A DNA stretch of 20,687 bases. Source: a virus. The position numbers and the translations under genes are program-made. Shown here piece after piece: positions 1 through 19,316 of this stretch. Position 1 is the first letter of the stretch, and the number at the start of each line of letters is the position of its first letter. The notes under the pieces are model-generated. The model was not told where the DNA came from, did not search any database, and saw only the letters and a program-made list of their open reading frames with translations. The DNA lies in IMG/VR virus record IMGVR_UViG_3300029893_000084, positions 1-20,687 of that record; one strand, written 5' to 3'.

Positions 1-739
1 CGTCCGGGGCCGGGCTCTTTGCTGCCTTTGGGTACGGTTGCGGGGGCAGCAGCAGCCTTGATCTCCATGCCCGCTTGAGGAAGAAGACATAGCGAAACTG
101 CCTGTACCGTAAACGAAACGCGCGATCCACCCCGGCCAGTAGTTGCTGCGCTCGTGTCCCTTGCCGGTGAGCAGTAAGCAGGATGCGGTGATAGAAGTCA
201 CCATCCAGGAAGTAGAAGTCCGTCACATGCTCCCCTACAAATTGAAAGTTGCATGCCTGATAAACTACCCCCAGTCCACCGCATCGTTCGTCGGCAAACG
301 TTTGTATCCAAGCCACGCTTGGCATTGCGTGCCGTATGTATTTCAGTGCATACGATATTGACATGCTTTCACTGTTCCTTGGTGCGACATCAGACAGCCA
401 CATGCGATTTAGCTCCAGGTATTCCCCTTGTGACGTATCGCGCACTACATGCGAGACTTGCACAGGGTTAAGCGCATACCCAAACTGTAGTACTCCGACC
501 AGGTTGTTCCTCTGGTAGACTCCTAAATGTACGAATGAGTTGTTCACAACAGTATGGCTGTAATGGTGTTTTGTAACCAACGCCCTGGCAGCACTCGCAG
601 ATAGCACCGCTATACAGTGATCATAATTCCCAAAACCGGCCACGGCCTTTGATCCGCGAATAAACCCCTTCTCATTGCCACTAGGCAGCGCCCACACACC
701 TGGATCAGGCGGGTGGTATGATCTTCTTTGCGTGGCCAC
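1..739 (-). CDS. mom: Mom, phage DNA-adenine modification protein (3' end beyond window)
   Basis: Mom modifies adenine in phage DNA to a bulky N6-acetamido/carbamoyl-type form, shielding it from host restriction enzymes; the family has a GNAT acyltransferase-like fold. The frame is open from the GTG at 739 to the window edge, 246 residues without a stop, close to the roughly 240 residues of Mu Mom, so it probably ends just outside. Conserved-looking blocks include HHYSH (58-62), LELNRMWLSD (108-117), NSES (122-125), WIQTFADE (144-151) and VVYQACNF (158-165). From memory, Mu residues implicated in activity (H48, Y49, R101, S114, D139, Y149) map with a constant offset of 11 to H59, Y60, R112, S125, D150 and Y160. 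The start was chosen because AGGAGG lies 6 bases before GTG. The gene overlaps com by 35 bases. GC content is near 50 percent, clearly below the rest of the window, suggesting separate acquisition. Confidence 0.9.
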   Translation of the reverse strand, partial: MATQRRSYHPPDPGVWALPSGNEKGFIRGSKAVAGFGNYDHCIAVLSASAARALVTKHHYSHTVVNNSFVHLGVYQRNNLVGVLQFGYALNPVQVSHVVRDTSQGEYLELNRMWLSDVAPRNSESMSISYALKYIRHAMPSVAWIQTFADERCGGLGVVYQACNFQFVGEHVTDFYFLDGDFYHRILLTAHRQGTRAQQLLAGVDRAFRLRYRQFRYVFFLKRAWRSRLLLPPQPYPKAAKSPAPD

Positions 740-896
740 TGATTGCCTCCTGTCGGGAGGCTCTGTGGCCTTCTGAGTTGGAGCTCGTGGCTCTCACGCA
801 GTTTATAACCTTACATTTCGGGCATTTGATATGCATAACGCTGACTATGCCCACCCCCAACAACCTATTACATGAACCGCATCGAATTTCCTGCAT
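705..896 (-). CDS. com: Com, zinc-ribbon translational activator of mom
   Basis: This 63-residue protein matches the Mu Com family, a small zinc-binding protein that binds mom mRNA and lets ribosomes start Mom synthesis. It begins MQEIRCGSC and carries a C-x2-C (6, 9) and C-x2-C (25, 28, within IKCPKCKVIN) zinc ribbon, followed by a basic region with RA and HRASR that could contact RNA. The length is essentially that of Mu Com (about 62). The last 35 bases of the gene are shared with the start of mom, as in Mu. The ribosome site is poor (GGAG only two bases before ATG), so it may depend on translation from upstream. It is 155 bases downstream of the tail hub gene; I see no clear promoter between them. 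Confidence 0.9.
   Translation of the reverse strand: MQEIRCGSCNRLLGVGIVSVMHIKCPKCKVINCVRATSSNSEGHRASRQEAISGHAKKIIPPA
734..770 (-). promoter_or_regulatory. Two-part RNA hairpin sequestering the mom Shine-Dalgarno and GTG start
   Basis: On the minus strand GCCTCC (761-756) and GGAGGC (750-745) form a perfect 6-bp stem around a 5-base loop, burying the AGGAGG ribosome site. GGCCAC (770-765) and GTGGCC (739-734) form a second perfect 6-bp stem outside it, burying the GTG start codon. The stems are separated by a 3/5-base internal loop. This is the layout expected for the Com-controlled translation-inhibitory structure known from Mu. The pairing is seen directly; the regulatory role is inferred from the com-mom context. 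Confidence 0.8.
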
Positions 897-19177: not shown

Positions 19178-19244
19178 CCAGTCCTCCTTGTGGGCCGCTT
19201 GACGTCCCGGCCCGGTGCTGGCAGAACTAGCCCACGCACGCACC

Positions 19245-19278
19245 AAGGGCCGCGCTGAAATCTTTCAGCGCGGCCCTT
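19245..19278. terminator. Perfect 16-bp inverted repeat in the protease leader
   Basis: AAGGGCCGCGCTGAAA (19245-19260) and TTTCAGCGCGGCCCTT (19263-19278) are exact reverse complements separated by 2 bases. The RNA hairpin would be very stable. There is no T-run after it in either direction, so it is not a classic intrinsic terminator; a U-less terminator, an attenuator, an mRNA-stabilising leader hairpin, or a protein-binding palindrome are all possible. It lies 68 bases before the protease ATG. Confidence 0.55.
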
Positions 19279-19316
19279 GACGTTCACGGGTCCGGGTCCA
19301 ACACGGGACCACCCCC

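Follow-up and report, generated by a model that had tools for sequence, protein, structure and literature searches.

The window, a stretch of 20,687 bases from an IMG/VR virus record, encodes the major head, tape measure and tail proteins of a siphophage head-tail module and is a fragment of a Mu-like siphophage. At its left end lie com and mom (Table 1). Their profile matches confirmed the com-mom identity that an earlier note had proposed, and the mom product, whose reading frame is open at the contig end, also matched a solved relative, 8bv8 (E 2e-62). When Com proteins, the one from the window included, were aligned, the four cysteines showed no variation. The mom start falls within com, and the two reading frames overlap; com reads through all the RNA features described below and ends about 35 nt past the mom start. 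A search against Rfam gave no match in the window. At the other end of the window, positions 19244-19279 hold a perfect palindrome, AAGGGCCGCGCTGAAA...TTTCAGCGCGGCCCTT, which is terminator-like on both strands.

Table 1. Genes and RNA features at the com-mom locus of the window
Feature	Positions	Strand	Basis and remarks
com	896..705	minus	63 aa, zinc-ribbon translational activator, CxxC...CxxC; PF10122 E 5.4e-14; PHROG 6417 'translational regulator' 1.8e-15
op1, predicted Com operator hairpin GAGAGCC-AC-GAGCTCC	795..780	minus	stem 793-790/784-781, loop CACGA; SELEX motif match, covariation
op2, predicted Com operator hairpin GAAGGCC-ACA-GAGCCTC	773..757	minus	stem 771-768/761-758, loop CACAGA; alignment with the Mu Com site, covariation
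Lock, outer stem, 5' arm GGCCAC	770..765	minus	fold; part of op2 5' arm and loop
Lock, inner stem, 5' arm GCCTCC	761..756	minus	fold; contains op2 3' arm
mom Shine-Dalgarno AGGAGG	751..746	minus	read from sequence
Lock, inner stem, 3' arm GGAGGC	750..745	minus	fold; AGGC is a copy of op2 5' arm (decoy arm)
Lock, outer stem, 3' arm GTGGCC	739..734	minus	fold; mom start codon and next three bases
mom	739..2	minus	PF25680 E 2e-72 (profile 4-202 of 202); 246 aa without stop
mom GTG start codon	739..737	minus	

The earlier note had described a nested hairpin of two perfect 6-bp stems at 734-770 on the minus strand, hiding both the ribosome site and the GTG start with the next codon of mom. We call this hairpin the lock. 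Sequence and fold agreed with that description exactly: the strand from 770 to 734 reads GGCCAC-AGA-GCCTCC-CGACA-GGAGGC-AATCA-GTGGCC, the outer stem takes in the start codon with the codon after it, and the inner stem takes up five of the six bases of AGGAGG. Two extra pairs, 763-741 and 762-742, were found in the lock fold. As an isolated 56-mer, the lock folded at -23.8 kcal/mol (z -5.4), and none of 200 shuffles was as good. The fold of the surrounding RNA that the note had proposed was favourable as well (101-mer, z -4.35); with 271 nt of context z was only -1.2, and the hairpin was still in the minimum free energy structure. The predicted unpaired probability was 0.003 for the mom start codon and 0.17 for AGGAGG, and the lock was predicted to be closed across 25-37 C, with unpaired probabilities much alike over the range, which does not favour an RNA thermometer. 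Nested perfect 6+6 stems occurred at about five distinct places per strand in this GC-rich window, compared with about 1.4 expected per random strand, and the one at 734-770 is that which covers the mom ribosome site and start codon. Since such nesting alone is not very rare, the meaning of the lock lies in what it covers and what it is made of.

Neither of the two operators in Table 1 figured in the earlier reading of the hairpin. A fixed-letter operator search on both strands of the 20.7 kb gave only two perfect matches, op1 and op2. Together with its flanks, op1 fits the published SELEX motif NGAGNNCC(N)2-3GAGNNCCNN (PMC6483171) letter for letter; it is located 22 nt upstream of op2. The op2 hairpin aligned with the Mu Com site GAATGCC-TGC-GAGCATC, occupies the same place, and has the Mu shape, with a 4-bp stem (AGGC/GCCU), a 6-nt loop and a C-G closing pair. 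The window therefore has a CC(N)2-3GAG operator hairpin upstream of the mom start. The outer lock arm is drawn from the 5' arm and loop of op2, and the inner one from the op2 3' arm; judged from the alignment, the 5' strand of the lock is a predicted Com operator homologous to that of Mu.

We folded growing transcripts of the window. In these folds, which are equilibrium predictions rather than kinetics and leave ribosomes translating com and in vivo folding outside the model, op1 (probability about 0.99) and op2 (about 0.93) formed first. When the ribosome-site strand emerged, op2 fell from 0.93 to 0.00 and op1 stayed at about 0.99; when the start strand emerged next, the full lock closed. 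Forcing op2 to form raised the accessibility of the start codon from 0.00 to 0.91 and that of the Shine-Dalgarno sequence from 0.17 to 0.45, at a modelled cost of about 13 kcal/mol for opening the lock. In the folding models of the window and of most mom relatives, the operator uses bases that the lock needs too, and the two are mutually exclusive.

In Mu, an inhibitory stem (TIS) has been reported to hold the mom GUG start beside the Com site GAAUGCCUGCGAGCAUCCC, and Com to act by binding mom mRNA; the Com hairpin is described as proximal to the TIS and partly overlapping it, and more than one Com site in the region has been speculated (PMC6483171, from the part of the paper available to us). 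The same text calls the binding mode of Com unknown, and the available part of this paper, the detailed Com-RNA study in the open literature, contains no description of tandem operators or of an operator that forms the lock. The Mu stem, TCCCAC-GGAGAAACATT-GTGGGA, is within com. Our operator search found no second operator in Mu. Forcing the Mu operator cost about 1.5 kcal/mol, left the lock intact and opened nothing, indicating that in Mu operator and lock are compatible.

Mu and the window thus have in common a zinc-ribbon Com gene just upstream of mom and overlapping it, an operator hairpin that carries CC(N)2-3GAG and is closed by a C-G pair, and a mom GUG/GTG start in an inhibitory stem inside com (predicted in the case of the window). 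They differ in layout. Mu has a single operator beside the TIS and compatible with it, whereas the window has two operators in tandem, of which the inner one serves as the 5' strand of the lock and cannot form together with it; the GGAG of Mu is only partly paired, whereas in the window the Shine-Dalgarno sequence is paired too. With its two operators and its cost of 13 kcal/mol, the window falls outside the Mu sub-type, in which one operator coexists with the inhibitory stem. The earlier note was right that the geometry differs from that of Mu, in that one operator is itself built into the lock and another is placed upstream. Its suggestion of an independent design did not hold, as the Mu stem also holds GUG and is also inside com, and the 5' strand of the lock corresponds to the Mu-homologous operator. 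The lock of the window shares its descent with the Mu switch and differs from it in layout.

We gathered com loci through searches with Mom and Com. Because the operator finder used at first scored pairing, a fixed-letter finder was substituted for the covariation counts. In the first set, where the op1 and op2 labels follow positions from the pairing-scoring finder, the two variable stem pairs were kept in 42 of 44 cases for op1 and in 73 of 74 for op2, and 0 of 5000 shuffles were as good. A further set of 42 com loci, from which near-duplicates of the first set had been removed, was free of that finder. An operator was present in 38 of these 42 loci, compared with 3 of 284 control regions, and the variable stem pairs were kept in 46/48 and 49/54 cases (again, 0/5000 shuffles as good). 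In a 21-row alignment, 100% of the operator cells paired, five pairs had changed on both sides, and slid controls reached at most 51% pairing; RNAalifold, unprompted, predicted the same two operator hairpins from this alignment. The natural operator consensus fits the SELEX motif of PMC6483171. The peptide encoded over the operator varies with the reading frame (NACEHP in Mu, QATELP in L007 and EGHRAS in the window), and in two loci, L090 and L093, the operator is positioned after the com stop. These observations indicated that it is the RNA, and not the protein, that is conserved.

The operator was linked to com. It was located upstream of mom in all 59 com-mom loci, compared with 2 of 62 mom loci in which com was not detected. 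One of these two, L019 (1410-1592), keeps op1- and op2-like hairpins and a com tail, and the com zinc finger was not found there; it is probably a decayed com. Almost every com-mom locus has op2, which covaries as a hairpin, and op1 is missing from several loci.

We then compared the lock across mom loci. With relatedness uncorrected, so that these and the following figures ignore kinship, start-region folds had a median z of -3.0 in com-mom loci (n=29) and of +0.14 in mom loci without com (n=33; p 2e-7). The start codon was at least half paired with the operator region in 24 of 29 distinct com-mom loci, and either the start or the Shine-Dalgarno sequence was paired with it in 26. When downstream strands were swapped between loci, the operator folded better with its own strand (mean -20.8 compared with -16.9 kcal/mol, p 6e-6). 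Own operators were also better than swapped ones in number of pairs (p 9e-4), and start-operator pairing separated the two (p 0.01); start accessibility alone gave no separation (p 0.26). Of the 29 loci, 12 had a downstream complement of their own 3' arm, as in the decoy arm of the window, where 5.6 would be expected (16 of 10000 permutations).

The exact stems of the window were not kept in register in relatives that keep the protein, a loss that the earlier note had named as counting against its reading, and the start codon nevertheless pairs with the operator region in most of them, as given above. Nor were the compensatory changes that the note had looked for in the lock stems found as single pairs with significant covariation: in aligned columns, 74.9% of the lock cells paired, and shuffles were nearly equal. 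This lack of significant in-register covariation is explained by lineages locking in different registers. Among the 19 mom loci that form op2 early, op2 was lost in the full fold in only 13, and some mom loci apparently lock through the op1 region instead. In longer folds of L003 (Pseudomonas phage JD024), L026 and L027, the start codon has its partner in the op1 region and not in op2; in such models, the lock strand may target either operator.

The lock, both operators, the operator covariation, the modelled incompatibility of op2 with the lock, and the association of operator with com across loci, all computed here, point to a probable translational switch with two states, in which Com controls mom through a lock made out of the operator of Com itself. 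Our inferences concern Com binding in the window and when it happens, what op1 contributes and how Mom levels respond, and they are as follows. In the nascent com-mom mRNA, op1 and then op2 would fold first. The ribosome-site strand, with its copy of the op2 5' arm, would capture the op2 3' arm, and the start-codon strand would then pair with the op2 5' arm and loop, burying both signals and keeping mom off. Still folded, op1 would serve as a landing site for Com. Com would bind both operator hairpins, preferably ahead of the synthesis of the lock strand, and Com-bound op2, held as a hairpin, would leave the start codon free for translation of mom. In the model, 13 kcal/mol would be a lot for Com alone if it acted after lock formation; Com in the window may therefore act mainly by catching op1 and op2 during transcription and not by melting a finished lock.

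Two-state leaders of the attenuator or riboswitch kind are a general class that sequesters the Shine-Dalgarno sequence. The predicted switch resembles them in its mutually exclusive hairpins, its dependence on transcription order, and a ribosome-site strand that competes for a shared arm. It differs from them in that the ligand would be the Com protein from the same mRNA, the switch lies within a coding region, and the effect would be activating.

The arrangement could also consist of separate parts, as in Mu: Com would bind an operator beside the hairpin and melt the hairpin without competition, with op1 as the working operator and op2 as accidental. Mu itself has one operator next to its inhibitory stem (PMC6483171, available part), forcing that operator is cheap and leaves the lock intact, and op1 of the window is an exact SELEX match that stays folded beside the lock. 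An accidental op2, however, would not be expected to hold the position of the Mu operator, to be near-universal in com-mom loci and to covary, with several loci lacking op1, and operators are more complementary to their own lock strand than to those of other loci. We regard this explanation as unlikely. Translational coupling, in which ribosomes translating com unfold the hairpin, the hairpin blocks independent initiation only and Com binding is unneeded, would fit the course of com through both operators and the lock to a stop shortly past the mom start. The com genes of relatives, however, stop at widely varying distances on either side of the mom start, in L090 and L093 even before the operator; coupling would leave unexplained why the operator hairpins covary and agree with the Com SELEX motif, and Mu Com is reported to bind mom mRNA (PMC6483171, in the text available). 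Coupling is thus very unlikely to account for the locus. That the lock is a product of chance or coding, with stems dictated by com and mom codons in a GC-rich stretch, is scarcely credible: the window does have nested 6+6 stems elsewhere, at several places, and mom often has Ala (GCN) as its second codon, a choice that favours pairing to the operator GGC/GCC, but the z of -5.4, operator covariation in different reading frames, the contrast with mom loci without com, and the swap tests all speak against it.

The predicted Com-operated switch may extend beyond mom. In the scanned cases of com loci without mom, the next gene encoded an N6/N4 methylase, a D12 adenine methylase or a C5 cytosine methylase. 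These methylase-type loci have mostly the same kind of operators, and their locks are often weak; the swap test in methylase loci was not significant (n=10). In L126, L128, L130, L156, L165, L207 and L209, com lies directly before such a DNA methylase gene (N6/N4, D12 or C5), and covarying operators are mostly present. In L170, L180, L196, L198 and L227, the operator region is followed by genes for proteins without a clear DNA-modification family; two of these proteins were scanned and had no Pfam match. The second operator in these five loci is often of the GATCGCC/GAGCGAC type.

In Pseudomonas, com-like genes have been found directly before LlpA bacteriocin and levansucrase genes (PMC6240691, PMC3899960), and a com stop mutation in P. 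syringae had no effect on lscB (PMC3899960). The general role of Com proteins is said to await exploration (PMC6240691). No operator is described at these bacteriocin and levansucrase loci in the parts of the two papers available, from which the preceding statements are also taken. The loci described here have mom or DNA methylases as cargo in place of a bacteriocin or levansucrase, and operators were identified in them. On a broader view, to which we give an even chance, the tandem-operator switch, with the lock strand as an 'anti-operator' competing with Com during transcription, would be the general form of Com control in Mu-like phages and the adjacent layout of Mu the exception; Com and its operators would then make up a portable cassette for translational activation, set in front of mom, of DNA methylases of several kinds and perhaps of further cargo genes.

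The covarying operator consensus, the tandem arrangement with an overlapping lock, and the fit to the SELEX motif provide a concrete mechanism by which Com would open mom, one that is testable by point mutation. With the operator consensus, Com targets can also be predicted, DNA methylases among them, and such prediction bears on how phages may delay costly DNA modification.
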